Source: Bacillota bacterium (GTDB taxonomy: Bacteria; Bacillota; Dethiobacteria; DTU022; UBA8154). From it: a DNA stretch of 64,000 nucleotides. The position numbers were made by a program, and so were the translations under genes. How positions within the stretch are numbered: position 1 is the stretch's first letter; every line of letters begins with the position of its first letter. Below the pieces are notes generated by a model. It saw only the letters and a program-made list of their open reading frames with translations. It was not told where the DNA came from and searched no databases. Shown in pieces: positions 2,177 to 25,732 of this stretch. The stretch is taken from the NCBI GenBank assembly GCA_012728375.1, contig JAAYFF010000012.1, positions 1 through 64,000 on the forward strand, written 5' to 3'.

Positions 2177-4213
2177 TTGAAACTAAAAAGGCTTAGTTGT
2201 TTTGTTTTGTTTTGTTTCCTGATGAGCATTTTCCTGCCGTCTGTTTCTTTAGCTAGCGGATCGGGAGGAACAATAGACAAGATTGCCGACGAGCTTTGGA
2301 GTATCTATCCTTACCTGGATGAGACGGATAAGGCTGCTCTTCGAGCCGCAAGGGAAAACTTGCAAATATTTGTGGACGAAAATCGATATTCCGATGTGTA
2401 TTCCGGCGGTGACAGCTACGACGATGCCTGGGATACAGTAATCGGAGCCCTGATGACAGATGAGGTAAAAGCAATATATGGAAGCAAAGAGGATGCAAGG
2501 ACTGCACTAATTGAGTTTGCTACCGGTGTTGCCAATAGTTATTATGCCAGTAGCAGGGAAGACTTAATAATTAGACTGACCAAGTTTAAGGATGATTACA
2601 AGGACGATTTCCAGAAATTATTTGGCAGTGATATCAAGCTCGAAACCCTATATAATCTATTGGAGCATACTCGCAAGGAAATTCCGAATGTCATTAAAAC
2701 TAAAACTGACCCTGACTACCTGAATAAATTGGCGTTTGGAACTAATACGGACTTGATCAATACCATTCCGAAGATAACTAAGGATGCGATGCTGGCAGCA
2801 TTAGATGCTTTTCCTTATTTTAAGGGCAAGCTTTCCGCCATTGGCTGGTCTGTAGATAAGATTATTGAGCAAAGGACAGAATTAAGCCAACTGATCGATC
2901 CAAACAATGCGGCGGAGTTGGCTTTAGCCAAGGCAGCTGTTCGCTCGGAAACTGAGCTTGTTGAAGATAAAACTACTCTGAGTATTGGTGAATCAACAAC
3001 ATACAAAATCCAAATAATGGGTAAGAATGCAACTGGTCTAGTAAATTGGCACAGTTCAGACCCTCAAGTCGCTGAATTTAACAAATTGGATGACGGACGC
3101 TATGGAGAAACCCTAACAGCAAAAAGTGCAGGGACTACGTTAATTACAGCCTACCGTGCCTATAACGGAGGCACTCCTGAAAATGATTGGATTATCCGCT
3201 TTCCAGTAGTAGTAAATCCAGCAGGCACTGGTGGCGGCGGCGGCGGAGGAGGAGGCGGTCCTTCGGCACCAGTTACCCCGCCTGCAGAGAGCAAGGAAGT
3301 AGTCATTGAGGTCCTTAAAGGCGGTAAAATTACCGTGAATGGTGTAATTGTCGAAATTCTTCCGAACGCACTGCCCGAAGATACCAAAGTATTAGTAATA
3401 CTGGTGGAAGATATCAGTGATTTGCCGCTGCTTAGCAGCTTGTTAAGTGATGTCTATGAAATTACAAAGGATAAAGCAGGTATCTTTACGGAACCGGTGA
3501 AGATTACGCTGTCTTTCGATAAGTCGAAAGTAGATCCAAATAAGTATGACATTGTCATCGCCTGGTACTGTGAAAAGATCGGCAAATGGATAGTTCTCGA
3601 TGATGTTGAAGTAGATTTTGAAGCGGGAACGGTATGCGGAATGACCGACCACTTTACCAAATTTGCTGTTCTTGCCATGGATAAAGTTGCTCTTCAATTA
3701 AAAGATATTAAAGGGCACTGGGCCGAGAACTTGATTACCCGGTTGGTTAGACTTGGCTCCATTTCAGGTTATCCGGACGGTACATTCAAACCCAATAATA
3801 ATATTACCAGGGGAGAGTTTGCCACAATACTCGTAGAAACTTACGGTTTAACCCAGAAAACCGGAGGAGGCAAGACCTTTAAGGATACCGAACAACACTG
3901 GGCAAAAGAATATATTTCCATCGCAGCCTCTCATGGTATTCTGAAGGGTTACAGCGATACGGAATTTGGTCCGGATGACAAGATTACTCGTGAACAGATG
4001 GCTGTAATGATCGTCAATGCAGCACAAGCAGAACAAAATGCTGCCGCAACTGCTTTCCAAGATCAAAATAAGGTTTCTGGTTGGGCTGCAGAAGCTGTGA
4101 AGGCAGCAACGAAAGCCGGGATTATTCAGGGATATCCGGATAATACCTTCAAACCCCAAAACAATGCCACAAGAGCTGAGGCAGTGACGGTTATTCTAAA
4201 TTCACTACGATAA
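2177..4213 (+). CDS. S-layer-homology (SLH) domain surface protein with signal peptide and poly-Gly linker
   Basis: N-terminal signal peptide; GTGGGGGGGGGGPS linker; three C-terminal SLH repeats (DIKGHWAENLITRLVRLGSISGYPDGTFKPNNNITRGEFA...). Confidence 0.9.
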   Translation: MKLKRLSCFVLFCFLMSIFLPSVSLASGSGGTIDKIADELWSIYPYLDETDKAALRAARENLQIFVDENRYSDVYSGGDSYDDAWDTVIGALMTDEVKAIYGSKEDARTALIEFATGVANSYYASSREDLIIRLTKFKDDYKDDFQKLFGSDIKLETLYNLLEHTRKEIPNVIKTKTDPDYLNKLAFGTNTDLINTIPKITKDAMLAALDAFPYFKGKLSAIGWSVDKIIEQRTELSQLIDPNNAAELALAKAAVRSETELVEDKTTLSIGESTTYKIQIMGKNATGLVNWHSSDPQVAEFNKLDDGRYGETLTAKSAGTTLITAYRAYNGGTPENDWIIRFPVVVNPAGTGGGGGGGGGGPSAPVTPPAESKEVVIEVLKGGKITVNGVIVEILPNALPEDTKVLVILVEDISDLPLLSSLLSDVYEITKDKAGIFTEPVKITLSFDKSKVDPNKYDIVIAWYCEKIGKWIVLDDVEVDFEAGTVCGMTDHFTKFAVLAMDKVALQLKDIKGHWAENLITRLVRLGSISGYPDGTFKPNNNITRGEFATILVETYGLTQKTGGGKTFKDTEQHWAKEYISIAASHGILKGYSDTEFGPDDKITREQMAVMIVNAAQAEQNAAATAFQDQNKVSGWAAEAVKAATKAGIIQGYPDNTFKPQNNATRAEAVTVILNSLR

Positions 4214-7585: not shown

Positions 7586-8122
7586 TTGTGGGCTGCCAAC
7601 AACGTAGGAAGCTGGCATGCATTATTTGTTGCCACCGGCCATGAAGAAAGAATTAAAAGAGCCCTGGATAAGCATTTTGACGATCAACTAAAATTTATCA
7701 TCCCCAAAAGGGAACTTAAAGAAAGAAAAGCAGGTAAATGGCATCTGGTCAAACGATACTTATTCCCCGGCTATATCCTGCTTAAAGGTAAGGTTACCGT
7801 CGAAACATACTATCGGCTTAAACAAATACCTGTGCTGGCTAGACTGCTGAAAAACGAAGACGGCCCATTGGAAATAGAAAAAAATGAAATCGAAGTCATA
7901 AAAAAACTGATTGGCAATGAAGATGGGCATATAGGAATATCCACAGCCTACAAGATAAATGACAGGGTTAAAATAATAAGCGGTCCTTTAGCCGGCCTGG
8001 AAGGCTACATACAAAGCGTTGACAAAAAACATGGCCGGGCTAAAGTCAGTCTTCGCTTTTTAGGCGAGCCAAGAACTGTTCAACTTGGTATCGATATCGT
8101 GGATAAAGTCAACGTTTTCTGA
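7586..8122 (+). CDS. loaP: NusG paralog of the LoaP type (transcription antiterminator)
   Basis: 'WHALFVATGHEERIKRAL...PKRELKERKAGKWHLVKRYLFPGYILLKG' NGN domain plus KOW 'KINDRVKIISGPLAGLEGYIQSVDKKHGRAKV'. Confidence 0.85.
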   Translation: MWAANNVGSWHALFVATGHEERIKRALDKHFDDQLKFIIPKRELKERKAGKWHLVKRYLFPGYILLKGKVTVETYYRLKQIPVLARLLKNEDGPLEIEKNEIEVIKKLIGNEDGHIGISTAYKINDRVKIISGPLAGLEGYIQSVDKKHGRAKVSLRFLGEPRTVQLGIDIVDKVNVF

Positions 8123-8129
8123 CACAAAA

Positions 8130-8232
8130 TCTGATGCGGCTATTCGGCAGTTTCGACTCCAATAGAAACATCAGAGGTCATAGCAATTCCGGTAGCATGA
8201 CGCAAATCATGTGACTGGGCGAAGCTATACCT
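8130..8232 (+). promoter_or_regulatory. Tandem structured RNA hairpins immediately downstream of loaP
   Basis: TCTGATG(8130-8136)/CATCAGA(8169-8175) with nested CTATT/AATAG, GG/CC and AGT-TTCG-ACT; then AGGT-c-ATAGC(8175-8184)/GCTATACCT(8224-8232) with nested TCC/GGG and CATGA-cgcaaa-TCATG. Confidence 0.6.
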
Positions 8233-8234
8233 TT

Positions 8235-8264
8235 AAAAGTTGGAAAGTTGGTCTGTTGGAAAGG
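8235..8264 (+). repeat. Left inverted repeat flanking four-helix-bundle gene
   Basis: AAAAGTTGGAAAGTTGGTCTGTTGGAAAGG, near reverse complement of 8634-8668. Confidence 0.75.
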
Positions 8265-8272
8265 ATAAGCAT

Positions 8273-8626
8273 ATGTATGACGATACTAATAAATTAATAG
8301 TTTGGCAAAAAGCTCACGAATTAGTATTAAAAACATATGAGATAACAAAAGATTTTCCAAAAGACGAGCAGTTCGGTTTAACCTCTCAAATTAGAAGGGC
8401 AGCTGTATCAATTCCAAGCAATATTGTCGAAGGTAAAGCAAGAGGATCCAACAAGGAATACAAAAGATTCTTGTTGATGGCAAGGGGATCTTTAGAAGAA
8501 GTAAAATACCAGTTGTTCTTAGCAAAAGATTTGAATTACATAGATGAAGAAAAGTATAAAGGTGTATTGAACTTAGCGATGGAAACTGGGAAATTGTTGG
8601 CTGGTTTAATTAAGAAATTGGATTAG
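8273..8626 (+). CDS. Four-helix-bundle protein (S23 / 23S rRNA intervening-sequence protein family)
   Basis: 'LIVWQKAHELVLKTYEITKDFPKDEQFGLTSQIRRAAVSIPSNIVEGKARGSNKEYKRFLLMARGSLEEVKYQL' is the family signature. Confidence 0.9.
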   Translation: MYDDTNKLIVWQKAHELVLKTYEITKDFPKDEQFGLTSQIRRAAVSIPSNIVEGKARGSNKEYKRFLLMARGSLEEVKYQLFLAKDLNYIDEEKYKGVLNLAMETGKLLAGLIKKLD

Positions 8627-8690: not shown

Positions 8691-9800
8691 TTGTCCGATA
8701 GAATCTTCCTCTCCTCCCCCCACATGAGCGATGAAGGTTATGAAATGCAATATATAAAGGAAGCTTTTGATACAAACTGGATTGCCCCCCTGGGACCAAA
8801 CGTTAATGAATTTGAGAAAGAGTTTGCCAAAAAAGTTGGTGCAAAACATGCTGCCGCTCTTTCTTCAGGAACAGCTGCTATTCAGATGGCACTTAAAGCA
8901 GCTGGTGTTGGTGAAGGGGATATAGTATTTTGCCAAAGCCTCACCTTCTCGGCTACAGCTAATCCAATTATTTATCAAAATGCAATTCCTGTATTTATTG
9001 ATAGTGATTATGAAACCTGGAATATAGATCCTAATGCATTAGAAGAAGCTTTTAGAAAATATCCAAATGTAAAAGCTGTTTTAGTAGTTCACTTATATGG
9101 CCTATCTGCTGATATGGACAGCATTATGGAAATTTGCCATAAGCACAATGTGGTTGTTATCGAAGACGCTGCTGAATCTCTCGGAACTTACTATAAAGGA
9201 AGGCATACGGGCACCATCGGGGATTACGGCATCTTTTCCTTTAACGGCAATAAAATTATTACTACCTCCGGCGGCGGGATGCTTGTTTCAGACGATGAAG
9301 AGAGAATTGCCAAAGTAAAATTTTGGGCCACTCAGTCCAGAGATCCCGCCCGGCACTACCAGCATAGCGAACTGGGCTTCAACTACCGCTTGAGCAACGT
9401 CCTCGCCGGCATAGGCAGAGGGCAGCTTAAAGTCCTGGAACAGAGGGTAGAGAAGAAGAAGTACATCTTCGAATATTACAAAAGGGAGCTCAGCGGACTG
9501 AATGGCGTTCAGTTCATGCCGATCAATGAATGGAACGAGCCGAACTACTGGCTGAGCTGCATCACCCTAAGCGGACCGGTCAGGCCGCTTGACATTATAG
9601 TAGCTTTAGAGAAAGAGAATATTGAATCCAGGCCCCTCTGGAAGCCGATGCACATGCAGCCATTTTTTGCTGAATATGATTATATAGGTGGAGAGGTATC
9701 GGAGAAGCTGTTTGAAAACGGCGTATGCCTCCCGAGCGATACAAAAATGACAGATGAGGAACTGGAGAGAGTGGCCGGAATAATTAAGCGGTTGTTTTAG
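8691..9800 (+). CDS. DegT/DnrJ/EryC1/StrS aminotransferase, PglE-like
   Basis: PLP aminotransferase motifs 'AALSSGTAAIQMALKAAGVGEGD', 'VIEDAAESLGTYYKGRHTGTIGDYGIFSFNGNKIITTSGGGML'. Confidence 0.9.
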   Translation: MSDRIFLSSPHMSDEGYEMQYIKEAFDTNWIAPLGPNVNEFEKEFAKKVGAKHAAALSSGTAAIQMALKAAGVGEGDIVFCQSLTFSATANPIIYQNAIPVFIDSDYETWNIDPNALEEAFRKYPNVKAVLVVHLYGLSADMDSIMEICHKHNVVVIEDAAESLGTYYKGRHTGTIGDYGIFSFNGNKIITTSGGGMLVSDDEERIAKVKFWATQSRDPARHYQHSELGFNYRLSNVLAGIGRGQLKVLEQRVEKKKYIFEYYKRELSGLNGVQFMPINEWNEPNYWLSCITLSGPVRPLDIIVALEKENIESRPLWKPMHMQPFFAEYDYIGGEVSEKLFENGVCLPSDTKMTDEELERVAGIIKRLF

Positions 9801-9885: not shown

Positions 9886-10575
9886 ATGCAGACCGAGCTT
9901 AAACAGACTATAAGATCAACCTTATCTAGGCCTGCAAAAGGCGGCATTTATAGAAAGTATATCAAAAGGCCGTTAGACTTTATTTTATCGCTTATTGCAA
10001 TTATATTATTATCACCGGTCTTATTGACAGTGGCAATATTAGTAAAAATTTACCTGGGCAGTCCGGTAATATTTAAGCAGAAACGTCCTGGATTAAATGA
10101 GAAGATTTTTACATTGTATAAATTTAGAACAATGACGGATGAAAGAGATGAAAATGGCGAGCTTCTACCAGACAGCCAGAGGTTGACGAAGTTTGGGAAA
10201 ATGCTGAGAGCTACAAGCCTGGATGAGCTGCCGGAGCTATTTAATGTTTTAAAAGGTGATATGAGCATCGTTGGGCCGAGGCCTTTATTAACTAAATATC
10301 TTTCGCTTTATGATGACTATCAGAAACAAAGGCATAAGGTAAGACCTGGTCTATCGGGTTTAGCAATGGCAAAGGGAAGAAATGCACTGACGTGGGAAGA
10401 AAAATTTTTTTACGATATATATTACGTAAAAAATGTATCATTTTTACTTGATATAAAAATTATCTTTTGGACGTTAGCTATTGTATTCAAGCGTGAAGGC
10501 ATAAATGAAAAAGGCTATGTTACAACAAGTGAATTTAAGGGTCCTAATAAAAAAGCAGGAGCAGAATTAAAATGA
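9886..10575 (+). CDS. Phosphoglycosyl transferase (bacterial sugar transferase), PglC/WcaJ-like
   Basis: '[59 protein letters not shown]...[21 protein letters not shown]'; start probably internal ATG after the 11-bp repeats. Confidence 0.9.
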
Positions 10576-11225
10576 TTTTAGCTATTTACTGTTGCGGTGG
10601 CCATGGTAAGGAAGTTCAATTTTTGGCTAATAGGATAAATGAAGTTGAAAGTAGATGGAATGAAATTTTATTTGTTGATGACAATCCAAACTATTTTTTA
10701 ATTAAAAACAAGGTTTTAACACTGGAAGAAATAAAGGCAAAATACAATAGTGATGAATGTGAATTTGTAATTGCTTCCGGCGAACCGTATGTATTAAAAA
10801 AGCTTTCTAATAAAGTATTGGATAGTAATTATCGGCTTACAAATCTTGTAGCGCCTGATGCAATAATAGATAGTGTTCTTCAGACCGGTCAAGGGTATAT
10901 TATTCAAAAACAAGTGGTAATAGCTTGCGATGTTAAGATTGGAAGAAGTTCATGCGTAAATTTTTCATCGATATTGCACCATGATGTTAGCATAGGTAAT
11001 TATTGTTTTATTGCATCCAGATCTACGATCTGTGGAAATGCGGTAATCAATAATGGGACTTATGTTGGAGCAGGAAGTATTATACGAGACGAAATCATGA
11101 TAGGTTCAAACTGTATCATTGGTATGGGCTCTGTCGTAACAAAAGATGTGCCAGATAATAGTGTAGTTTATGGAAATCCTGCAAAGGTAATTAAAAGCAA
11201 TAGTAACCAAAGAGTTTTTCAATAA
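10572..11225 (+). CDS. Sugar O/N-acetyltransferase, NeuD/PglD-like (left-handed beta-helix)
   Basis: N-term NeuD/PglD-like domain; hexapeptide repeats ending '[31 protein letters not shown]'. Confidence 0.85.
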
Positions 11226-11287: not shown

Positions 11288-11959
11288 ATGAAGATTTTGG
11301 TAATAGCAGCACACCCCGATGACGAAGTTTATGGAATGGGTGGTACAATAGCAAAACTAACTAAGCAAGGGCATGAGTTATATGTTTTAATTATTACAGA
11401 AGGATGCTCAACCCAATATAAAGATCGGCCACATTTAATTAGGGAAAAGAAAAAACAAGCATATGAGGCTAACGCTGTTCTTGGAGTCAAGGAAGTTATT
11501 TTTGGTGATTTGCCTGATATGAAACTTGATACCGTAGCGCATGTAAAGATAAATGCGGTTATCGAAAAAGCAATAAGAGACTTAAAACCTAATGTAGTTT
11601 ATACACATTTTTATGGTGATGTGAACAAAGATCATAGGTGTGTTTCTGAATCAACTATGGTAGCGGTAAGGCCCATACATTTACAGTGTGTCCGTGAAGT
11701 CTATTTTTATCAGGTTCCATCCTCGACAGAATGGGCCGCAAATGTAGCACTGAATACTTTTACACCAAACGTCTTTGAAGAAATATCGAAGTACTACGAT
11801 AGGAAGCAGGCTGCAATATTAGCCTATTCATCAGAAATTAGAGAATACCCCCATCCCCGCTCTCTTAAAGTAGTAGAAATGTACGATTTAGCACTTGCAA
11901 AGCGTAATGGATTAGAATTAGCGGAAGGATTTATGTTAATAAGAAAGGTTAATAAGTAG
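11288..11959 (+). CDS. PIG-L/LmbE family deacetylase
   Basis: 'ILVIAAHPDDEVYGMGGTIAKL' and 'VYTHFYGDVNKDHR'. Confidence 0.9.
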   Translation: MKILVIAAHPDDEVYGMGGTIAKLTKQGHELYVLIITEGCSTQYKDRPHLIREKKKQAYEANAVLGVKEVIFGDLPDMKLDTVAHVKINAVIEKAIRDLKPNVVYTHFYGDVNKDHRCVSESTMVAVRPIHLQCVREVYFYQVPSSTEWAANVALNTFTPNVFEEISKYYDRKQAAILAYSSEIREYPHPRSLKVVEMYDLALAKRNGLELAEGFMLIRKVNK

Positions 11960-11960
11960 A

Positions 11961-12851
11961 ATGAATTTTATATTAATAGGTTCTGTTGAATCCAGTAACA
12001 TTTTCCTCTTAAAGGCTATAGAAAATGGATTTTTACCTAGTCATGTTTTTGGATTAGATGAGCAGTATTCGGAAAATGTATCCGGGTTCTTCCCTATTTA
12101 TAAAACTGCAGAAGACAATAGGATACCTTTTACTAGATTCAAAAAAATAAATGATAATTTTAGTAAAATTAAAGAGATAAAACCTGATTACATATTCGTA
12201 ATTGGCTTATCACAGATAATAAGTAGAGAACTGATCACTTGTGCGAAAATTTTTGCGATAGGAATGCACCCCACGCCACTACCTAAATTTAGAGGTAGAG
12301 CAGCTATACCTTGGCAGATAATTCTTGGAGTGAAAGAGTCAGCAGTAACTTTTTTTAGAATTACAGATGGCATGGATGATGGTGATATTTTATGGCAAGA
12401 GCCATACTACATTGATTCAGATGATTATGCTTTTGATGTTCATCAGAAAGTCTACGCGGCATTGGGTAAGGCAACAGGCATTCTTTTAAATAAATTATCC
12501 GAAGGAACTATAAAACCAGTTCCGCAAGACCAGTCACAAGCCACCTATTTATTAATACGCAGAGAAGAAGATGGTCAGATTGACTGGAAAGAGCCAATTG
12601 AAAGCATATACTCTCTTATTAGAGGTGTATCAAAGCCTTATCCAGGAGCGTTTTCATATTATGAAGGAAAGAAGGTTATTTTTAATCGAGCTGAGATTAT
12701 TAAGAATAGTTCATATATAGGTATTAACGGCCAAATTGCAAAGATTGAAAATGGTGCTATTTACATTGTAGTTTATAATAATCTGCTTAAAATCACTGAC
12801 TATACTGCGAAAGAAAAAATTAGATTTGTTGTTGGCAAGAAATTTAGATAA
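11961..12851 (+). CDS. Sugar formyltransferase-like protein (methionyl-tRNA/ArnA formyltransferase fold)
   Basis: 'GMHPTPLPKFRGRAAIPWQIILGVKESAVTFFRITDGMDDGDILWQ'. Confidence 0.85.
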   Translation: MNFILIGSVESSNIFLLKAIENGFLPSHVFGLDEQYSENVSGFFPIYKTAEDNRIPFTRFKKINDNFSKIKEIKPDYIFVIGLSQIISRELITCAKIFAIGMHPTPLPKFRGRAAIPWQIILGVKESAVTFFRITDGMDDGDILWQEPYYIDSDDYAFDVHQKVYAALGKATGILLNKLSEGTIKPVPQDQSQATYLLIRREEDGQIDWKEPIESIYSLIRGVSKPYPGAFSYYEGKKVIFNRAEIIKNSSYIGINGQIAKIENGAIYIVVYNNLLKITDYTAKEKIRFVVGKKFR

Positions 12852-14245: not shown

Positions 14246-15247
14246 ATGAGCATAGGGATCAAGGCAATTGAATATGTTCTTCCTGAAAAAGTGTTGACAA
14301 ATGAGGAATTATCATGCCTATATGAAGATTGGACACCTGAAAAGATACTGGACAAAACAGGGATTGCTTCGCGTCATGTTGTTTCAAAGGACGAACATGC
14401 ATCGGATTTGGCAGAGAGAGCGGCAAAAAAACTATTCAGTACAGGTATTACAACACCGGAAGAAATTGATTTTCTTTTATTGGCAACCCAAAGCCCTGAC
14501 TATTTGTTGCCTGCTACGGCATGCATACTTCAGGACAAGCTGGGGATTCCACAAAATGCAGGGGCCTTTGATTTCAATTTGGGGTGTTCAGCTTATATAT
14601 ATGGTTTGGCTTTGGCAAAGAGTTTAATAAATACAGATATTGCCAAAAACGTACTTTTAATTATGTCAGAAACATATTCCAAATATATACACCCGTTGGA
14701 TAAGAGTGTACGTACAATATTTGGAGATGCCGCAGCAGCGACATTGATTAGTGATAATGGAAACAGAATAGGAAATTTTGATTTGGGAACTGATGGCCGC
14801 GGCAAAGATTTATTGATTGTCCCAGCCGGAGGCTCAATGCTTCCAAAATCAGAAGCAACTGCGACAGAGACTTATGATAGCGGTAATATTCGTTCTCTAG
14901 ACAACTTATTTATGGATGGAGCTGAAGTGTTTAACTTTACAATCCGTGTCGTTCCTGAAAGTATAAGAAATGTACTAAAGAAAAATAAACTAACGCTAGA
15001 TGAGATAGACCTATTTATTTTTCACCAGGCAAACAAGTTTATGTTGGATTTTTTAAGGAAGAAACTAAAAATACCAAAGGAAAAGTATTATATAAATATG
15101 CAGGACATTGGCAATACGGTATCTGCGTCAATTCCCATTGCTCTTAAAAGAGCTGAAGAAGAAGGAAAAATAAAAAAAGGTTACAAAGTATTGATTTCCG
15201 GATTTGGTGTAGGCTTGTCTTGGGGCTCGACAATTTTGTATTATTAA
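14246..15247 (+). CDS. 3-oxoacyl-ACP synthase III (KASIII) family protein, copy 1
   Basis: Cys-His-Asn triad motifs 'NLGCSAYIYGL', 'FIFHQANKFML', 'DIGNTVSASIPIAL'. Confidence 0.9.
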   Translation: MSIGIKAIEYVLPEKVLTNEELSCLYEDWTPEKILDKTGIASRHVVSKDEHASDLAERAAKKLFSTGITTPEEIDFLLLATQSPDYLLPATACILQDKLGIPQNAGAFDFNLGCSAYIYGLALAKSLINTDIAKNVLLIMSETYSKYIHPLDKSVRTIFGDAAAATLISDNGNRIGNFDLGTDGRGKDLLIVPAGGSMLPKSEATATETYDSGNIRSLDNLFMDGAEVFNFTIRVVPESIRNVLKKNKLTLDEIDLFIFHQANKFMLDFLRKKLKIPKEKYYINMQDIGNTVSASIPIALKRAEEEGKIKKGYKVLISGFGVGLSWGSTILYY

Positions 15248-16353
15248 GCCGAGGGAGGAGAGTAGTATTATATTTTCAACTTTTGATAATATCAAAAAGC
15301 GGGATTGCTTGTGCAGTCCCATCAACTAAAGAAATATTAATTGAAAAATATGCGGATGTTTTTGGAGAAGAAAATGTCAAGAAATTTAGCAAGATGACAG
15401 GTATATTCTCTAGATATACTACGATACAAGAGCAAACAGCTTCAGACCTGTCATATGAAGCTGCAAAACATTTGATTAATAAAAAAAACATTCAACTTGC
15501 AACGATAGGGGCCATTGTATTTGTTACCCAGACTCCGGATTATAGACTTCCATCTTCAGCATGCGTCCTTCATAAGCGGCTTAATCTTTCGAAGGATTGC
15601 ATGGCTTTTGATGTTAATTTGGGGTGCTCGGGTTATGTATATGGGCTGCAAATTTTATCGTCATTAATGGCCAGCAGCAATATAGAAAGGGGCTTGCTAT
15701 TGGCAGGAGATACACTTACTAAAAGTTGTGCACCGAAAGACAGCTCGTCCTGCATGTTGTTTGGGGACGCCGGGTCTGCAACTTTACTGGAAAGAACTGA
15801 TGAAAAAAGATGCATACAAATGGGTTTTAGAACCGATGGAAACAGGTTCAAAGCCATAATCATCCCTGCAGGCGCTTATAGAAATAGCGATTCTCCACAT
15901 GAAAGAGTATTATGGGGCGATGGTAATGTTCGTTCAGACTATGATTTATATATGAATGGTACCGATGTATTTACTTTTACTATTACTGAAGTTCCTTTAC
16001 TTATAAGTGAGTTTATGGATAAAACAAATACGAAACCCGATAATTATGACAGTTTTGTGATGCACCAGGCGAATTTGTTTATACTAAAGCAGGTTGCCAA
16101 ACGATGTAAAATTTCAATGGATAAAATGCTGATTTCAATGGATAGGTATGGCAATACCAGTGTTACATCCATTCCGTTGACAATGGCCGATAAATACGGC
16201 GATAATAATTATGGAAGTTCTAAAATGTTAATGAGTGGGTTTGGCATTGGGCTGTCATGGGGAGCTGTGTCGGCGGAAGTTGATACCAGGGATATTTATT
16301 CAATACTTGAAACGGATAGTTTTTTTAAAGAAGGAAGTGTAAGCCGTGATTAA
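15220..16353 (+). CDS. 3-oxoacyl-ACP synthase III (KASIII) family protein, copy 2; N-terminus/start uncertain
   Basis: 'VNLGCSGYVYGL', 'FVMHQANLFIL', 'RYGNTSVTSIPLTM'. Confidence 0.85.
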   Translation: MGLDNFVLLSRGRRVVLYFQLLIISKSGIACAVPSTKEILIEKYADVFGEENVKKFSKMTGIFSRYTTIQEQTASDLSYEAAKHLINKKNIQLATIGAIVFVTQTPDYRLPSSACVLHKRLNLSKDCMAFDVNLGCSGYVYGLQILSSLMASSNIERGLLLAGDTLTKSCAPKDSSSCMLFGDAGSATLLERTDEKRCIQMGFRTDGNRFKAIIIPAGAYRNSDSPHERVLWGDGNVRSDYDLYMNGTDVFTFTITEVPLLISEFMDKTNTKPDNYDSFVMHQANLFILKQVAKRCKISMDKMLISMDRYGNTSVTSIPLTMADKYGDNNYGSSKMLMSGFGIGLSWGAVSAEVDTRDIYSILETDSFFKEGSVSRD

Positions 16354-17104
16354 TCCTCTGGATTTGACGGGGAAACATATTTTAGTGACAGGTGCTTCCT
16401 CGGGAATAGGAAAAGCGACAGCCATATATATAAGCAAATTAGGGGCCAAAGTTACCTTGGTTGCGCGCAATGAAAAAAAGCTTGAAGACACATTATCTAA
16501 GCTTGAGGGTGAGGGGCATAGTGTGTACCCATTTGATTTAAAACAAGTAGAAGAAATCGAGGGTTTAATTAATAATATTGTTTCGCAAAAAGGTGCCCTA
16601 AATGGTTTGGTCCACTGCTCAGGAATTGCAACTATGAGGCCGCTGAGCATGACAAGAACCGCCTTTTTGCACGATATGATGCTGCTAAACTTTTATGCTT
16701 ATGTTGAATTGATAAGATGCTCTTCAAAGAAAAATAATTTTACTGAAGGGGCCAGCTTTATTGGAATTTCATCTGCCAGAAGTATATCCGGTGATAAGTC
16801 ACAGACCGCGTACTGTTCCTCCAAAGCTGCAATGGATGCTGCAACCAGATGCATGGCCAAAGAGCTTGCCACGAAGAAAATACGAGTAAATACGGTAATA
16901 GCTGGTTTTATAAAAACTGCTATGTATGATATGTTTGTAGGAAATGCCGGAGAAGAGGCCGTAAATTCTTATATTCTAGGAAGGCAATATCTAGGGATGG
17001 GAGAAACTGTAGATGTCGCCAATGCTGTAGCTTATCTATTGAGCGATGCAGCAAAATTCATCACCGGGACAGGCTTGATAGTCGATGGGGGCTTTTTATC
17101 GTAA
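16346..17104 (+). CDS. SDR-family 3-oxoacyl-ACP reductase-like (FabG-like)
   Basis: 'GKHILVTGASSGIGKATAIYISKLGAKV', 'YCSSKAAMDAATRCMAKELA', 'FITGTGLIVDGGFLS'. Confidence 0.9.
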   Translation: MINPLDLTGKHILVTGASSGIGKATAIYISKLGAKVTLVARNEKKLEDTLSKLEGEGHSVYPFDLKQVEEIEGLINNIVSQKGALNGLVHCSGIATMRPLSMTRTAFLHDMMLLNFYAYVELIRCSSKKNNFTEGASFIGISSARSISGDKSQTAYCSSKAAMDAATRCMAKELATKKIRVNTVIAGFIKTAMYDMFVGNAGEEAVNSYILGRQYLGMGETVDVANAVAYLLSDAAKFITGTGLIVDGGFLS

Positions 17105-17146
17105 TTAACGCTTTATTGAGCAAAATAAAGATGGAGGGAATGGAAA

Positions 17147-17365
17147 ATGACAACTCAAGAAAAACTTGCCATGCTGGAGGAAATAATGGAATTGGAATCA
17201 GGGTCTCTAAATGCAGGAACAAAGCTAGAAGATTTGGAGGAATGGAATTCAATGGCAGCTCTTGCCCTCATCGCTTTAATGGACGAGGAGTTTAATAAAA
17301 TATTAACCGGGAAACAGATTAAGGAATTTAAAACCGTGCAAGATATTTTGGACTTTATGGAATAG
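17147..17365 (+). CDS. Acyl carrier protein
   Basis: 72-aa acidic protein with phosphopantetheine-type serine context 'LEEWNSMAALALIALMDEEF'. Confidence 0.85.
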   Translation: MTTQEKLAMLEEIMELESGSLNAGTKLEDLEEWNSMAALALIALMDEEFNKILTGKQIKEFKTVQDILDFME

Positions 17366-17422
17366 GACATCACAAATCATTATATTTAACCAAAAATTAT
17401 ACCAAAGAAGAGGATATATATT

Positions 17423-18364
17423 ATGGGAAAAGTAGCATTTGTTTTTCCGGGTCAAGGAGCTCAATTTCCCGGAATGGGAAAAGATTTTTATGACAACTTT
17501 GATGTTGCGCGGCAAACATTTAACATTGCAGACAGCATTCTAAATTATAAGCTGTCTAAGATTTGTTTTGAAGGAAATGAAGATGAGTTGATGCTGACAA
17601 CCAATACTCAACCTGCAGTATTGGTAACATCTATTGCCATTTATAATGTCCTGAAGGAAGAAGGATTTGCTGCAGAGTTTACAGCAGGACTTAGTTTAGG
17701 CGAATACAGTGCTTTGGTAAGTTCGGATTCTATTGAACTGGAGCGGGCGGTAAAAATAGTGCAGAATCGAGCTGCTTATATGCAAGAGGTAGTACCTGTT
17801 GGGGTTGGGAAAATGGCAGCAATTGTTGGGCTTGGGTTTAAAGAATTGGATGAAGTACTGGAGAGTGCCAAAAACAAAGGAATTATTGAGATCGCTAATT
17901 TTAATACGCATGAGCAAACAGTAATCTCCGGAGAGACAGCGGCGATAAAAGAGGCAATAAAGAGCGCCAAAGCGTTAGGTGCAAAAAGAGCTCTTCAACT
18001 GCCTGTTAGTGCCCCATTTCATTGCAGTATGATGAAACCGGCTGGTGAACTGCTTAGAAATGATTTAAAGGATCTTAATATCAAACCTCCTAAAATTAAT
18101 TTTGTAAATAATGTAGATGCAAAAGTTGTATCAGACAGTGAGTATATAAGAAAGTCGCTGATAATGCAGGTAAGCAGTTCGGTAAAATGGTATCAAACAA
18201 TTGAGTTAATGTTAAATGAAGGTGTTAGGCGTTTTATAGAAATTGGGCCGGGAACAACACTGAGGAATTTTATTAAATCTATTTCTGCTCATTTAAATAT
18301 TGAGGTTGAAAGCTATTCCATTGGTGATATGGAAGGATATAAAAAAGTTTTAAAAGAATGGTAA
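17423..18364 (+). CDS. ACP S-malonyltransferase (FabD-like)
   Basis: 'FVFPGQGAQFPGMGKDFY', 'AGLSLGEYSALV', 'PVSAPFHCSMM'. Confidence 0.93.
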   Translation: MGKVAFVFPGQGAQFPGMGKDFYDNFDVARQTFNIADSILNYKLSKICFEGNEDELMLTTNTQPAVLVTSIAIYNVLKEEGFAAEFTAGLSLGEYSALVSSDSIELERAVKIVQNRAAYMQEVVPVGVGKMAAIVGLGFKELDEVLESAKNKGIIEIANFNTHEQTVISGETAAIKEAIKSAKALGAKRALQLPVSAPFHCSMMKPAGELLRNDLKDLNIKPPKINFVNNVDAKVVSDSEYIRKSLIMQVSSSVKWYQTIELMLNEGVRRFIEIGPGTTLRNFIKSISAHLNIEVESYSIGDMEGYKKVLKEW

Positions 18365-18376
18365 TACAGTTGTCTT

Positions 18377-18898
18377 ATGATTAAATTGTACTTTACAGAG
18401 ATTGAGAATTCTAAACTTCATTCGGATCACTTTGTAAAAAATCTTTTAGCCGAATTCTTATGTGTTGACTCCGACAGCCTTGTAATATGTAAAAATGGCT
18501 ATGGTAAACCTTATTTAAGGGATTACCCGGATATACATTACAATGTATCTCACACAAAAGGAGCTATTGTTTGCGCTCTGGCAGATGAGCCGGTAGGGGT
18601 TGATATTGAAAGAATAAAAAGGTTTAATAAGCATCTTGTAGAACATTTTTTTACGAAAGATGAACAAAAATATATTTATGCCGGCAAAACCAAACAGGAA
18701 GAAAGATTTGCAGAAATTTGGACAAAGAAAGAAGCCTATGTTAAATGGATAGGCAAGGGTATGGAATTACCTTTTCATACTTTTAGTGTGCTGCAAAAAG
18801 AAGAACTATCTATTTTACAGCAAGGCATTTATTATATTGCTGTTTGTACTAATAAATGCAATAACAACATTCAGGTGATAGAAGTTGGAGAAGAATGA
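18377..18898 (+). CDS. 4'-phosphopantetheinyl transferase (Sfp type)
   Basis: 'GVDIERIKRFNKHLVEHFFTKDE' and 'IWTKKEAYVKWIGKGM'. Confidence 0.92.
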   Translation: MIKLYFTEIENSKLHSDHFVKNLLAEFLCVDSDSLVICKNGYGKPYLRDYPDIHYNVSHTKGAIVCALADEPVGVDIERIKRFNKHLVEHFFTKDEQKYIYAGKTKQEERFAEIWTKKEAYVKWIGKGMELPFHTFSVLQKEELSILQQGIYYIAVCTNKCNNNIQVIEVGEE

Positions 18899-19626
18899 TG
18901 GAATTTACCTATAGCAAATACAGATTTTTACTGGAGTTACTTAAACATAAAAAATATGAATTTGCCTCTTATAGTAACTATAAGGCTATATCTAAGCCCG
19001 TTATTTTAAGACATGACATAGATAATTCCCTGACAAAAGCTTTGGAAATAGCAAAGATTGAAAATGAATTTCATGTTAAATCAACTTATTTTGTTTTGTT
19101 ATCCACCGATTTTTATAATATTTTTTCAAAAAGCTGCAATGCGATAATAAAAGAAATAATCAATTTAGGTCACGAGATAGGGTTACACTTTGATGAACAA
19201 AGATACATAATAAATTCAGAAAATGAACTAGAACGTTATGTCGAATACGAAAAAAAAATACTTGAGGGAGTAATAGAAAGATCTGTCGAAGCAGTCTCTA
19301 TGCATCGACCGTCCAAATGGATTCTAGAGAATAATATTCAGTTTAGATCTCTGATAAATACTTATGGGGCCGAATTTTTTATTACTTTTAAATATCTATC
19401 TGACTCCAGAATGCAATGGAGAGAAGATGTAATTGGTATAATAAACAGCGAGAGATATGATAAACTGCATATTTTAACCCATCCTTTTTGGTATGCTCAC
19501 GATAGCGGAAATATAAAAAGCCGGATTAAGGGATATATAAATAGTGCAAAAAAAGAAAGATATTATCAATTAAAAGAAAATATCACTAAATTAGAAGAAA
19601 TTCTTGAGTTAGAAGAGGTTTTATAA
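18895..19626 (+). CDS. Polysaccharide deacetylase-like protein
   Basis: 'PVILRHDIDNSLTKALEIAKIENEFHVKSTYFVLLSTDFYN...LGHEIGLHFDEQRY'. Confidence 0.75.
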   Translation: MMEFTYSKYRFLLELLKHKKYEFASYSNYKAISKPVILRHDIDNSLTKALEIAKIENEFHVKSTYFVLLSTDFYNIFSKSCNAIIKEIINLGHEIGLHFDEQRYIINSENELERYVEYEKKILEGVIERSVEAVSMHRPSKWILENNIQFRSLINTYGAEFFITFKYLSDSRMQWREDVIGIINSERYDKLHILTHPFWYAHDSGNIKSRIKGYINSAKKERYYQLKENITKLEEILELEEVL

Positions 19627-19656
19627 GGTTTTTTGTGCTAAAAGGAGATTTTTGTA

Positions 19657-20580
19657 ATGCTGCATATTGATGATATTAAAAATTATTTACTAGAAAATAA
19701 TTATGATTTCAAGTATTATGGAGACAAAGAAATCAAAATAGCAGGTTTTTGCTCATTGAGCAAACCAAAAAGAAAATCGATAACTTGGATAAAAAATTAT
19801 TCTTTCGATAAAATTAAGGAACTAAAAGAGCTTAAGGTTATTATAGTCACTGATCATAAAGGTCTGGAGTTATCTCATAAAGAAGGATATAATGTAATAA
19901 TTTGCGATAGCCCAAAAGAGGTTTTCTTTAAGATACTATCACACTTTTTTGTTGAGGATGTTAAAGCGAGCATAAGCCCTAACTCTATTATTGAAACTGA
20001 TAAAATAGGAAAGAATGTATCCATCGGAAACAATTGTTATATTTCCAAAGACGTTACTATAGGTGATAACGTCATTATAAAACATAATGTCGTAATCGAA
20101 TGCAAGTGTATAATTGGCCGCAACTCTATTATACATTCCGGGGTAGTCATTGGAACAGATGGATTTGGATATTACAAGGCCGGTGACGGAGCAAATATAA
20201 AAGTGCCCCATTTTGGAGGAGTCATAATTGGGGAGGATGTCGAAATCGGGGCTAATACCTGTATTGATAGAGGCACATTAGATGACACAGTAATTGGCGA
20301 TAATGTAAAAATTGATAACCTTTCCATGATTGCTCATAATGTAGAAATAGGTAGCCGGACTATGATATTACCGCAGGTTGTTTTGGCTGGCAGTTGCTTT
20401 ATCGGTAAAAATGCATATCTAGCACCAGGTGCAATCGTAAAAAATCAAGTTAGAGTTGGCAATAACAGTATGGTCGGAATGAATGTTGTTGTCACTAATG
20501 ATTTAGAAGATGATACAGTTCTTGCTGGAAACCCTGCAAAAAAATTTAGAGTAAATTATCTTGATATACTTGATCTTTAG
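19657..20580 (+). CDS. LpxD-like N-acyltransferase (left-handed beta-helix)
   Basis: '[48 protein letters not shown]', matching the LpxD core including the IAHNVEIG histidine. Confidence 0.88.
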
Positions 20581-20592
20581 GCGCAAATCGGA

Positions 20593-21921
20593 ATGAGGAT
20601 AGATGGAATGAAACAGAAACTATTACAAAAAATTCAAAATAGGCAAATAGCTGTAGGTGTAGTCGGACTTGGGTATGTTGGTCTTCCCCTTGCCGTTGAA
20701 AAAGCAAAAGCAGGCTTTAAGACCATTGGATTTGATATACAGCCTCATAAAGTTGCTATGGTCAACGCGGGAAAGAATTATATCGGGGACGTTGTAAGCA
20801 GCGATCTTTCACAGCTAGTTAAAAAAGGAATGCTATCTGCTTCATCCGATTTCTCTTTTATCAAAGACATGGATTTTATCGCCATCTGTGTTCCTACTCC
20901 CTTAGATATGTATCAGCAGCCGGATATAACTTACATAAAGAAATCTTCGGAGGATATTAGCAAATACCTGAAAAAAGAAACGATGGTTGTTCTTGAGTCC
21001 ACTACCTATCCGGGAACAACTGAAGAATTAATAAAACCCATTCTTGAGAAGGGCTCCGGTTTAAAATGCGGGATAGATTTTTATCTCGGATTTTCCCCGG
21101 AGCGCGTTGATCCCGGTAATTTAATCTACAATACGAAAAATACACCAAAAGTTGTTGGCGCTGTTGGCGAGGATGCTACTGAAGTGATTGCCGCGATGTA
21201 TCGCGCGGTTCTTAATGGCGATGTTTATACAGTATCCAGTCCAAAAGTGGCGGAGATGGAAAAAATACTTGAGAATGTATATAGAAATGTAAATATTGGA
21301 CTTGTAAATGAGCTGGCAATATTATGTAATAAAATGGGCATAAATTTCTGGGAAGTAATAGAGGCAGCGAAAACAAAGCCATACGGATTTCAGGCTTTCT
21401 ATCCTGGTCCCGGATTGGGTGGTCACTGTATTCCCATTGACCCCTATTACTTATCCTGGAAAGCGCGGGAATATGGATTTCACACATCAATGATTGAGTC
21501 TTCGATGATGATCAATGATCGCATGCCCGAGTATTGTGCCGAAAGAGCGAGCAAGATCTTGAATCGATATAAGAAGGCTGTTAACGGGGCCAAAATACTA
21601 GTTCTTGGGGTGGCTTACAAGCAAGATATTGATGATTACCGGGAAAGCCCCGCCATTAAAGTTATTAATGAACTTAAAAAAGAAGGGGCAGATGTTGTTT
21701 ATTTTGACCCGTTTGTACCCGAGTATCGTGATCGCGGCAAAGTCTTTAAAGGGGAGTTAGAACTGACCAAAGAACTGCTTCAAAGTGCTGATTTGGTTAT
21801 CGTTGCTACGGCACATACTGCAGTGGATTATGACTTTGTGCAGAAACACGCCCGGATTATTTTTGACACCAAGAATGCCATGAAGAATGTAAAAAACAGG
21901 GATAATATTGAGCTTCTCTAG
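20593..21921 (+). CDS. UDP-N-acetylglucosamine 6-dehydrogenase-like nucleotide sugar dehydrogenase (WbpA/WecC-like)
   Basis: 'VGVVGLGYVGLPLAVEKAKAGF', 'VLESTTYPGTTEE', 'GPGLGGHCIPIDPYYLSWKARE'. Confidence 0.93.
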   Translation: MRIDGMKQKLLQKIQNRQIAVGVVGLGYVGLPLAVEKAKAGFKTIGFDIQPHKVAMVNAGKNYIGDVVSSDLSQLVKKGMLSASSDFSFIKDMDFIAICVPTPLDMYQQPDITYIKKSSEDISKYLKKETMVVLESTTYPGTTEELIKPILEKGSGLKCGIDFYLGFSPERVDPGNLIYNTKNTPKVVGAVGEDATEVIAAMYRAVLNGDVYTVSSPKVAEMEKILENVYRNVNIGLVNELAILCNKMGINFWEVIEAAKTKPYGFQAFYPGPGLGGHCIPIDPYYLSWKAREYGFHTSMIESSMMINDRMPEYCAERASKILNRYKKAVNGAKILVLGVAYKQDIDDYRESPAIKVINELKKEGADVVYFDPFVPEYRDRGKVFKGELELTKELLQSADLVIVATAHTAVDYDFVQKHARIIFDTKNAMKNVKNRDNIELL

Positions 21922-21934
21922 GAGGAAACACTGA

Positions 21935-22894
21935 ATGCGGAAAAAATTATGTGTCATTGGAGGGGGGCGGTGGGGTGAAAATCATATCAGAACTCTCTTC
22001 CAGATGGGCAACCTGGCGGGTATTGTAGAAACTAATTCGCAAAGAATGGACGAGTTGCTAGAAAAATACCCCGTCCAGGGATTTACTCAAATAGATGATG
22101 CGATTCAGCAAGAATTTGATGGTTATATCTTAGCCACGCCGGCGGAAACGCATTATCCTGTTGCAAGAAAATTATTGGAGAGAGGATTAAGCATACTTAT
22201 AGAAAAACCGATGGCCCTTTCCTCCAAACATTCCCGGGAACTGCTTGAAATTGCCGGGCGGACAAAGGCCAGGCTTATGGTTGGGCATCTTTTATTATTT
22301 CATCCGGCCATTAGAAAAATTAAAGAAATTATCGATAGCGGCAAAATCGGCCGGCTTTATTATATTTACTCCACCAGGTTAAATTTAGGCACAGTCAGAA
22401 CAGAGGAGAATGTTTTCTGGTCTTTTGCGCCCCACGATATATCGGTTCTTGATTATTTCGTCGGACAACCTCCTTTGAAGATACAAGCCAAGGGTGCAAA
22501 ATTCCTGCAAAACAATATCTATGATGTCACTATAGCCCAATTTGAATACCCGGATAACATTCATGCGCATATCTTTGTTTCCTGGCTGCATCCATTTAAA
22601 GAACAAAGGTTGGTTGTGGTCGGGAGCCAAGGGATGGTTTCTTTTGACGATTCTTCCTTGGAAAAGAACATTCTTTACTATAATAAACGTATAGATTGGA
22701 TGGATGGAAGACCGGTTAAGGTGGAGCAGCCGGATGAGATCATTGCTTATGAGAAACGCATGCCGCTGTCTGAAGAACTTAAGTACTTTATAGAAAACCT
22801 CGATAAAGAAATAAATATCTCCAGCGGAAAGACCGGTCATGAAGTAGTAAAAGTGCTGGAGAAGGTGCATAATCAAATCTCCCGTGAGGAGTAA
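21935..22894 (+). CDS. Gfo/Idh/MocA-family oxidoreductase (WbpB-like)
   Basis: 'CVIGGGRWGENHIRTLFQMG', 'GLSILIEKPMALS'. Confidence 0.88.
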   Translation: MRKKLCVIGGGRWGENHIRTLFQMGNLAGIVETNSQRMDELLEKYPVQGFTQIDDAIQQEFDGYILATPAETHYPVARKLLERGLSILIEKPMALSSKHSRELLEIAGRTKARLMVGHLLLFHPAIRKIKEIIDSGKIGRLYYIYSTRLNLGTVRTEENVFWSFAPHDISVLDYFVGQPPLKIQAKGAKFLQNNIYDVTIAQFEYPDNIHAHIFVSWLHPFKEQRLVVVGSQGMVSFDDSSLEKNILYYNKRIDWMDGRPVKVEQPDEIIAYEKRMPLSEELKYFIENLDKEINISSGKTGHEVVKVLEKVHNQISREE

Positions 22895-22910
22895 ACTGTG
22901 GTGATGGTAG

Positions 22911-23474
22911 ATGGAAGATTATTTTGTACATGAAAGCAGTTATGTGGATGAAGGAGTGTCTATCGGCAGCGGTACAAAGATATGGCATTTCTGCCATATT
23001 CAAAAAGGCGCTCGACTGGGAGAAAACTGTATCCTTGGCCAGAATGTCAATATATCTAATAACGTGAAGATAGGTAACGGTGTAAAGATCCAGAACAACG
23101 TTTCAGTGTATGAAGGTGTGGAACTTGAAGACTATGTATTTTGCGGGCCTTCTATGGTATTTACCAATGATCTGACACCAAGAAGCAAATACCCCAAAGG
23201 CAGCAAAGGGTATAAAAAAACTCTGGTCAAGCACGGAGCTACTATCGGCGCTAATGCGACTATTGTTTCAGGAATTACTATAGGGCGGTGGGCTATGATC
23301 GCTGCCGGTGCCGTAGTGACCAAAGATGTACCGGATTATGCTTTGATGGCGGGGATGCCTGCGAGATTAATAGGTTGGGTCTGTGAATGCGGAAAGCCGC
23401 TTAAAGAAAGGTTAAAGTGCAGAGACTGTGGAAGGGAATATAAGTTAGAAAAAGGGTTACTTCTGGAGAGATGA
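22911..23474 (+). CDS. UDP-amino-sugar N-acetyltransferase (WbpD-like) with C-terminal Cys-rich zinc-ribbon-like tail
   Basis: Hexapeptide repeats '[31 protein letters not shown]...[10 protein letters not shown]'; tail '[20 protein letters not shown]'. Confidence 0.9.
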
Positions 23475-23492
23475 AGATAAAGGAGCAGTAAA

Positions 23493-24632
23493 GTGCAATT
23501 CAGGGATTTGAGAGCCCAATATCAACGTTATAAAACCGAGATCGATGCAGCAATACAAAAAGTGCTATGTAGCGCAAACTTCATTGGCGGAAACGAAGTT
23601 GCCGAGCTGGAAGAACAGTTAGCTGAATACGTGGGTGTTAAACACTGCGTCACCTGTGCCAACGGCACTGAGGCCATGACGCTTGTTCTGATGGCCTGGG
23701 GTATTAAAGAGGGGGATGCGGTTTTTGTCCCGGATTTTACATTTTTTGCAACGGGTGAAGTTGTAGCTTTTCGAGGGGCAACACCTGTATTTGTAGATGT
23801 AGAGCGGGATACCTTTAACATTGATCCCTTAAAGCTGGAAAAAGCAATTAAGAGGACAATTAAAGAAGGTAAATTAACACCTAAAGCCGTTATTCCTGTT
23901 GACTTATTTGGCTTGCCGGCAAACTATCCTGAGATCGAGAAGATTGCCCGCAAGTATAATCTTCTGGTGCTTGAAGACGGAGCACAGGGTATGGGAGGCA
24001 ATATAAACGGGAAAAGAGCCTGCAGCTTTGGCAACGCGGCTACTACTTCTTTTTTCCCTGCCAAACCGCTGGGCTGCTATGGAGACGGCGGAGCTGTATT
24101 TACTGACGATGACGGTCTTGCACAGCTTGTCAAATCCCTGAAAGTGCACGGCAAAGGGAAAAATAAATATGATAATGTGAGGATTGGCGTTAACTCAAGG
24201 CTAGACGCTATCCAAGCAGCTATTCTTAAAGTAAAACTAAGAGCGTTAATTGAACATGAACTGGAAGATGTAAACAGGGTCTATCGTTTATACAATGAAA
24301 GGCTTCAAGGCATTGTTGAAACCCCTGTTATCCCTGAAGGATACTATTCCAGCTTTGCTCAGTACACAATTAAATTAAAAAACAAGCAACAGCGTGACGA
24401 GCTCCAAGCAAAATTAAAAGAACAGGGCATCCCCAGCATGATTTATTACATAAAACCAATGCATAAACAGGGAGCTTTTTCATATTTGGAGTATGACGAT
24501 CAGGATTTTAAAGTAGTCAACGAACTTTGCGACATTGTACTTTCCCTGCCAATGCATCCGTATTTAAGTGAGGAGGCCGTTGAATCTGTGGCTGAAAGTA
24601 TACAAAAATTTTATCACTTTTTATATAAGTGA
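23493..24632 (+). CDS. DegT/DnrJ/EryC1/StrS aminotransferase (WbpE-like)
   Basis: 'CVTCANGTEAMTLVLMAWGIKEGDAVFVPDFTFFATGEVV', 'SFFPAKPLGCYGDGGAVFTDD'. Confidence 0.93.
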   Translation: MQFRDLRAQYQRYKTEIDAAIQKVLCSANFIGGNEVAELEEQLAEYVGVKHCVTCANGTEAMTLVLMAWGIKEGDAVFVPDFTFFATGEVVAFRGATPVFVDVERDTFNIDPLKLEKAIKRTIKEGKLTPKAVIPVDLFGLPANYPEIEKIARKYNLLVLEDGAQGMGGNINGKRACSFGNAATTSFFPAKPLGCYGDGGAVFTDDDGLAQLVKSLKVHGKGKNKYDNVRIGVNSRLDAIQAAILKVKLRALIEHELEDVNRVYRLYNERLQGIVETPVIPEGYYSSFAQYTIKLKNKQQRDELQAKLKEQGIPSMIYYIKPMHKQGAFSYLEYDDQDFKVVNELCDIVLSLPMHPYLSEEAVESVAESIQKFYHFLYK

Positions 24633-24652
24633 TTAATTCGAGGAGAAAACGG

Positions 24653-25732
24653 ATGAAAATACTATCTATTGTAGGTGCAAGACCTCAATTTGTTAAAGAG
24701 GCTATAGTACAACATGAAATTAATAAATTTAATGATATAAAGGAAGTAGTAGTCCATACTGGACAGCATTATGATGAAAATATGTCTGATGTTTTTTTTG
24801 ATGTTTTAAATATGCGAAAACCGAAATACAACCTGGGAATAAGTGCATCAATGCATGGTGAAATGACAGGTAAAATGATAATTGAATTAGAGAAGATCAT
24901 GGTCAAGGAAAATCCTCATGTAGTTTTATTATATGGGGATACAAATTCAACATTGGCGGGAGCTATAGCGGCATCAAAACTAAAGTTTAAAATTGCTCAT
25001 GTAGAAGCAGGACTCAGGCAAGAACCAAAAGACGCGCCAGAAGAAATTAATAGGGTGCTTACTGACAGGATATCAAATTATTTATTCTGTCCTAGTGAAT
25101 TGAGTATAGAAAACCTTAATAAAGAAGGCATTGTAAAAGGAATTTATTTTACCGGAGATGTTATGTATGATTTATACCTAAAAATGAAACCCAGATTTAA
25201 TTATTCACTAATGGAAAAATTGGGATTAAAGAAAAATGAATTTATTATGATGACATTACATAGGGACTTTAATGTTGATCTTCCGGAGAGACTTAAAAAA
25301 ATTCTTACGGAAATAAATAAGGTTTCAAAACAAATAAAAGTAGTTTTTCCCATACATCCAAGAACAAAGAAAAGAATTAACGATTTTAACCTTGAGGATT
25401 TTATTAAAGATGTTATGGTAATAGAGCCGATTAATTATTTGGAATTGATGGGCTTAACAGAGAGTTGTTATAAAGTAATTACTGATAGTGGCGGATACCA
25501 AAAGGAAGCATATTTTGCCGGAAAACAAGCTGTAGTAATAATGCCTGATACAGGCTGGAGAGAATTAACGGATTTAGGGTTTAATAAGTTAGCAAACGAA
25601 AACAATATATACCGAAAAATTATGGAAGACAATATAACAAAATATACCAAGAACATATATGGTGACGGTAATGCAGCAGAGAAGATAGTAAGCATTTTAA
25701 GAAATGATTTTTTAAAGGCTTATGGGGTATAG
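24653..25732 (+). CDS. Non-hydrolysing UDP-N-acetylglucosamine 2-epimerase (WbpI/WecB-like)
   Basis: 'MKILSIVGARPQFVKEAIV', 'VHTGQHYDENMSDVFF', 'HVEAGLRQEPKDAPEEINRVLTD', 'VITDSGGYQKEAYFAGK'. Confidence 0.92.
   Translation: MKILSIVGARPQFVKEAIVQHEINKFNDIKEVVVHTGQHYDENMSDVFFDVLNMRKPKYNLGISASMHGEMTGKMIIELEKIMVKENPHVVLLYGDTNSTLAGAIAASKLKFKIAHVEAGLRQEPKDAPEEINRVLTDRISNYLFCPSELSIENLNKEGIVKGIYFTGDVMYDLYLKMKPRFNYSLMEKLGLKKNEFIMMTLHRDFNVDLPERLKKILTEINKVSKQIKVVFPIHPRTKKRINDFNLEDFIKDVMVIEPINYLELMGLTESCYKVITDSGGYQKEAYFAGKQAVVIMPDTGWRELTDLGFNKLANENNIYRKIMEDNITKYTKNIYGDGNAAEKIVSILRNDFLKAYGV

Follow-up and report, generated by a model that had tools for sequence, protein, structure and literature searches.

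The locus described here raises the question of why a polysaccharide operon should contain its own genes for the synthesis of acyl groups on an acyl carrier protein (ACP), and to which sugar these groups may be transferred. The window, which is the whole stretch of DNA analysed (64,000 nucleotides of contig JAAYFF010000012.1 of a Bacillota bacterium, assembly GCA_012728375.1), encodes eight genes on the + strand between positions 14246 and 20580. These are separated by short gaps or overlap one another, and all lie inside a polysaccharide operon extending at least from 8691 (aminotransferase) to 29875 (flippase). The best explanation, which we consider to stand at an even chance as a whole, is that an acyl-ACP cassette would supply a short 3-hydroxyacyl group, while a putative deacetylase (PDA) would deacetylate an amino sugar that an LpxD-like enzyme would then re-acylate. 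The eight genes are as follows:

14246-15247, + strand: KS3a, 3-ketoacyl-ACP synthase III (KASIII) of the cassette-specific 'a' clade (NF006829, 8.5e-89; Cys113-His259-Asn289, initial Met not counted)
15220-16353 (open reading frame), + strand: KS3b, KASIII of the cassette-specific 'b' clade (NF006829, 3.8e-70, slightly below the cut-off of that model; Pfam ACP_syn_III_C, 1.1e-22); start uncertain, TTG at 15220 or perhaps TTG at 15283
16346-17104, + strand: short-chain dehydrogenase/reductase (SDR), FabG-like 3-oxoacyl reductase (Pfam, 2.9e-48; 46% to the SDR of the cassette in genome G352)
17147-17365, + strand: dedicated ACP of 72 residues with a WNSM serine site (PF00550, 7.6e-5, over cut-off)
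17423-18364, + strand: FabD malonyltransferase (TIGR00128, 1.6e-91, over cut-off)
18377-18898, + strand: Sfp-type phosphopantetheinyl transferase (PPTase; PF01648, 3.7e-18)
18895-19626, + strand: PDA, NodB-like deacetylase homologue (RHDxD, GHxxGLH and THP motifs; homologues)
19657-20580, + strand: LpxD-like hexapeptide N-acyltransferase of a non-lipid-A grade, with His227 (NF002060, 9e-70, over cut-off)

A preliminary description of this sequence had listed the same genes, and their positions, strand and close packing were borne out, with family matches far beyond chance. Likewise, the Cys-His-Asn residues are intact in both KS3a and KS3b, the ACP carries its serine in WNSM, the LpxD-like protein retains the catalytic His (H227), and the eight-gene block lacks genes for a KASII, a dehydratase and an enoyl reductase. 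Promoter and terminator scans of the sequence performed no better than chance level.

Separate fatty acid synthesis genes and lipid A status of the host

The host genome assembly comprises 2.38 Mb in 88 contigs and is 96% complete, so that ~4% may be missing. A separate and full plsX-fabH-fabD-fabG-acpP-fabF cluster is found on contig C79 and a separate AcpS-type PPTase on contig C27. The genes in the window are thus not the only fatty acid synthesis (FAS) genes, in agreement with their earlier designation as a dedicated acyl-ACP set. LpxC was not found in the host genome, with control genomes giving matches where expected, and comparison of the LpxD-like protein against the host genome revealed no other LpxA/LpxD relative, the sole second match being NeuD. 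The host is therefore probably free of lipid A, as had also been proposed. Assignment of the block to primary FAS or to a lipid A pathway, which has only the enzyme names in its favour, is extremely improbable. The former is contradicted by the FAS cluster and AcpS located elsewhere and the latter by the failure to find LpxC or another LpxA/LpxD relative in the genome, while the LpxD-like protein also falls outside the true LpxD clade. Any lipid A genes would have to be encoded in the ~4% that may be missing.

Related cassettes and the two KASIII clades

Judged by gene content, the cassette is of a known and portable kind, which recurs next to sugar aminotransferases and N-acyltransferases. 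As in the viosamine-type loci, the genes for KASIII, ACP and SDR reductase are accompanied by those for a sugar aminotransferase and an N-acyltransferase. Related cassettes occur in a genome of the same genus (G001), in other members of the phylum and in a viosamine-type island of Burkholderia glumae, and a scan of genome contigs based on the SDR yielded two loci. The G001 cassette encodes DegT, a QdtC-like transferase, KASIII (55% to KS3a), ACP, SDR (43%), FabD (49%) and DegT, while that of G352 encodes PglC, KS3a (58%), ACP, KS3b (46%), SDR (46%), a NeuD-like protein and DegT. G365, G392 and G087 have variant cassettes, in which the transferase is NeuD-like or a different candidate. The B. 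glumae plasmid pBGF3 encodes vioA, KS3a (52%), ACP, KS3b, SDR and a NeuD/VioB-like transferase close to flagellin. This island, together with the N-(3-hydroxybutyryl)viosamine of Pseudomonas (PMC3927599), upholds the viosamine precedent drawn in the preliminary description. The KS3b of pBGF3 (locus L115, 20449-21550) is present as two overlapping, unannotated frames, reflecting a frameshift or a sequencing error. The serine motif of the related cassette ACPs, W(D/N)S(L/M), corresponds to the WNSM of the window, while the primary ACP of the host has DSL.

In the KASIII tree, KS3a and KS3b belong to two distinct cassette clades, neither of which lies in the primary FabH clade. Some related cassettes carry both types, and the 'a' and 'b' clades thus recur together. 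Since G001 has a KS3a-type enzyme without KS3b, and a single KASIII is reported in the Pseudomonas syringae island, KS3b is probably accessory. Two b-type KASIII (locus L139, 2605-3717 and 15851-17053), with SDR and ACP genes, are also found around the flagellin/pseudaminic acid region of the Azospirillum brasilense plasmid p3. The two separate but co-recurring KASIII clades, as well as the deacetylase link described below, are absent from the preliminary description.

A syntenic locus in G024, which belongs to the same order, is free of the cassette, while its WbpA, WbpB, WbpE, glycosyltransferase and flippase are 71%, 70%, 77%, 60% and 66% identical, respectively, to those of the window. Comparison with this locus suggests that a wbp-type polysaccharide operon acquired the block in a single insertion. 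The LpxD-like gene adjoins the cassette, and both are missing from the corresponding position in G024.

The LpxD-like protein and its association with deacetylases

The LpxD-like protein matches TIGR01853 with 234.7 bits, below the cut-off of 242.5. The catalytic His (H239 in Escherichia coli LpxD, H227 here) and the oxyanion Gly (G257 and G245, respectively) are kept, as is an aromatic residue (W44) at the uracil site. D220 corresponds to D232 of LpxD, which bonds the 3-hydroxyl (PMC6286764). A further E. coli LpxD residue, given as R193 in a review, could not be located in the sequence and is left out of the comparison. In the trees, the protein is placed not in the true LpxD clade (99/99 support) but in a grade of homologues that are ~300 residues long. 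Among 98 genomes of the class to which the host belongs, strong matches were obtained in the window and G024 only, and no relative was found in viral contigs. The G024 gene, located where the window has wbpD, belongs to a different clade. Such sister-clade genes fill the wbpD slot of wbpA-wbpB-X-wbpE in G024 (locus L069, 9299-10222) and G500 (locus L143, 9848-10741), which suggests a role in 3-N-acylation for the members of that clade. LpxD-like and PDA homologues also occur in sugar loci on haloarchaeal plasmids (locus L135, 8006-9762; locus L136, 9001-14162). An AlphaFold2 model generated without an alignment (mean predicted local distance difference test score 57.5) was too poor to judge the depth of the acyl pocket.

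A deacetylase, either PIG-L or NodB-like, is encoded in 9/9 loci of the grade versus 0/5 loci of the sister clade (one-sided Fisher 0.0005), a value which is descriptive only as the loci were counted after the pattern was noticed. PIG-L is found in the grade loci of G168, G207, G129, G204 and G490 and PDA in those of a Sphingomonas plasmid, Halobaculum and Haloprofundus, while the window has both; no deacetylase was seen in the sister-clade loci (G248, G198, G024, G068 and G500) by comparison with the two of the window. The grade is not monophyletic, the deacetylase lies anywhere from adjacent to a few kb away, and two of the LpxD-like loci were contributed by order searches around three relatives. 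No paper linking PIG-L or NodB-like deacetylases with LpxD-like enzymes was found in a search of an open-access library. PDA itself is tentatively assigned as a NodB-like deacetylase through its homologues, the closest of which conserve the RHDxD, GHxxGLH and THP motifs. As these homologues occur mainly in wbpA/B/D/E-type loci, a 2,3-diamino-uronic sugar is indicated as the PDA substrate. We infer a deacetylate-then-reacylate step resembling that of LpxC and LpxD.

Proposed pathway

We infer the acyl donor, the acceptor and the order of steps as follows. The Sfp-type PPTase would convert the dedicated ACP to its holo form and FabD would load malonate to give malonyl-ACP, which KS3a would condense with a short acyl-CoA; KS3b may act likewise, perhaps from another starter. 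The SDR would then reduce the 3-keto group to give 3-hydroxyacyl-ACP, although reduction after transfer is also possible. PDA would strip an N-acetyl group from its substrate, an amino sugar that is probably the 2,3-diacetamido-uronic sugar made by the neighbouring wbp genes. The freed amine would then receive the hydroxyacyl group through the action of the LpxD-like enzyme. The acyl group is most likely 3-hydroxybutyryl. That the cassette makes a short 3-hydroxyacyl group for an amino sugar is quite probable, and the balance tips slightly towards the LpxD-like enzyme as its user, while exposure of the acylated amine by a deacetylase falls a little short of an even chance.

Neighbouring genes in the polysaccharide operon

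Upstream of the cassette, the operon encodes a LegC-type aminotransferase, a PglC-like transferase, a NeuD-type transferase, a PIG-L deacetylase and a formyltransferase-like protein, and the cassette is directly followed by wbpA-B-D-E-I-like genes, the likely source of the acceptor sugar:

8691-9800, + strand: LegC/PseC-type sugar aminotransferase (TIGR04181, 9.1e-116, under cut-off)
10572-11225, + strand: NeuD-type sugar N-acyltransferase, a rival recipient of the acyl group (TIGR03570, over cut-off)
11288-11959, + strand: PIG-L family deacetylase, probably the partner of the next gene (PF02585, 8.1e-30)
11961-12851, + strand: formyltransferase-like, probable sugar N-formyltransferase (family matches)
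20593-25732, + strand: wbpA-B-D-E-I-like genes, probable UDP-2,3-diacetamido-2,3-dideoxy-uronic acid pathway

The formyltransferase-like gene starts one base after the PIG-L gene (11288-12851), so that the operon may contain two deacetylase-acyltransferase pairs, these two genes forming the second. The region 7586-8626 includes a NusG/LoaP-like gene, which heads the operon, and a gene within the operon for a four-helix protein of the 23S-intervening-sequence type. Outside the operon, an S-layer-homology protein (2177-4213) is encoded on the upstream side, and on the downstream side lies the gene for a protein of 1440 residues (33620-37942), which gives MBG, FecR and BslA-like matches.

Alternative explanations and implications

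In favour of the proposed pathway are the primary FAS and AcpS located elsewhere in the genome, the failure to find LpxC in the host, the repeated occurrence of such cassettes next to N-acyltransferases for sugars, the conservation of D220, the position of the LpxD-like gene next to the cassette and its association with deacetylases, as well as the viosamine pathway, which yields an N-(3-hydroxybutyryl) product (PMC3927599). Several observations weigh against it. In the LpxD-like protein, Q264 replaces the second His (H276), which 24/24 true LpxDs keep, M224 replaces Q236, and the C-terminal tail of 13 residues (30-52 in the 24 true LpxDs) is devoid of the helix bundle. As the C-terminal helices of LpxD bind ACP (residue roles from PMC6286764 and PMC6820557), any use of acyl-ACP by the LpxD-like enzyme would involve docking unlike that of LpxD. 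The VioB-type enzymes of the viosamine islands are also short, and the missing helices are thus no proof of a CoA donor. Relatives of the LpxD-like protein occur in haloarchaea, and archaea are not known to have a bacterial type II FAS or acyl-ACP system, which speaks against an ACP donor throughout the grade. Furthermore, the family-library matches of PDA are weak (TIGR03006, 2.4e-4, under cut-off; no Pfam match), and the deacetylase count is post hoc and involves few, related loci.

In the main alternative, the cassette would feed the NeuD-type enzyme for acylation of the 4-amino sugar formed by the LegC-type aminotransferase, and the donor of the LpxD-like enzyme would be acetyl-CoA or a different compound. 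G352, G365 and B. glumae have NeuD/VioB-like enzymes adjoining their cassettes, so that the neighbouring acyltransferase is NeuD-like in other cassettes with two KASIII, and the VioB of P. syringae is of the same kind (PMC3927599). The window itself encodes a NeuD, and its LpxD-like enzyme is without ACP-binding helices. However, this NeuD gene is separated from the cassette by 3 kb on the upstream side, whereas the LpxD-like gene directly adjoins it, and the cassette-free G024 has PglC-NeuD at the same place, so that NeuD is not dependent on a cassette. On this evidence we regard delivery to NeuD as rather unlikely. Even less probable is direct acylation of the 3-amine formed by the WbpE-like aminotransferase, with the LpxD-like enzyme replacing the N-acetyltransferase and no deacetylation taking place. 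While the sister-clade genes in the wbpD slot in G024 and G500 would fit such a role, the window contains a wbpD-like gene of its own (22911-23474), and its LpxD-like protein falls within the deacetylase-linked grade. Of the earlier interpretation, the dedicated acyl-ACP set, the probably lipid-A-free host and the viosamine precedent thus stand, but acyl transfer from ACP by the LpxD-like enzyme is not established, given its missing helices and second His, its haloarchaeal relatives and the rival NeuD.

While the cassette is of a known kind, its combination with a deacetylase/LpxD-like pair is less expected. It can be proposed, tentatively and with more doubt than confidence, that enzymes of the LpxD family that act outside lipid A synthesis constitute a general module for re-acylation, in which the partner deacetylases have unrelated folds (PIG-L or NodB-like instead of LpxC) and which is spread across bacteria and haloarchaea; here it would be fed by its own short-chain acyl-ACP factory. 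If so, the deacetylate-then-reacylate logic would not be limited to lipid A or LpxC, and LpxC-LpxD would be a single instance of a broader amine-swap strategy for surface sugars, while short acyl-ACP cassettes would be portable modules coupled to differing sugar acyltransferases. Such a pathway would offer a testable route to hydroxyacyl-amide polysaccharides, and caution is advised in annotating these genes as lpxD in lipid-A-free hosts.

Comparison with known systems

The viosamine island of P. syringae pv. tabaci 6605 comprises vioA, vioS, acp, vioR and vioB, and its product, N-(3-hydroxy-1-oxobutyl)viosamine, is lost upon deletion of vioR (PMC3927599). This island, the homologous PAK glycosylation island and that of B. 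glumae pBGF3 likewise encode KASIII, ACP and SDR beside a sugar aminotransferase and an N-acyltransferase. The window differs in also encoding FabD, an Sfp-type PPTase and a second KASIII (the latter shared with B. glumae), in the replacement of the VioB-like transferase by an LpxD-like one, in the addition of a deacetylase, and in its polysaccharide rather than flagellin setting. The likeness to LpxC-LpxD is that the amine of a sugar would be exposed by a deacetylase and would receive a 3-hydroxyacyl group from an enzyme of the LpxD fold, which keeps the catalytic His. Here, however, the deacetylase has another fold, no LpxA or LpxC was found in the host genome, and the ACP-binding helices and second His are lost. 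Finally, the dTDP-3-amino-sugar N-acyltransferases of the QdtC type include QdtC itself, a CoA-dependent acetyltransferase (PMC2943079), and a QdtC-like enzyme fills the acyltransferase slot in G001, of the same genus, where the window has the LpxD-like enzyme.

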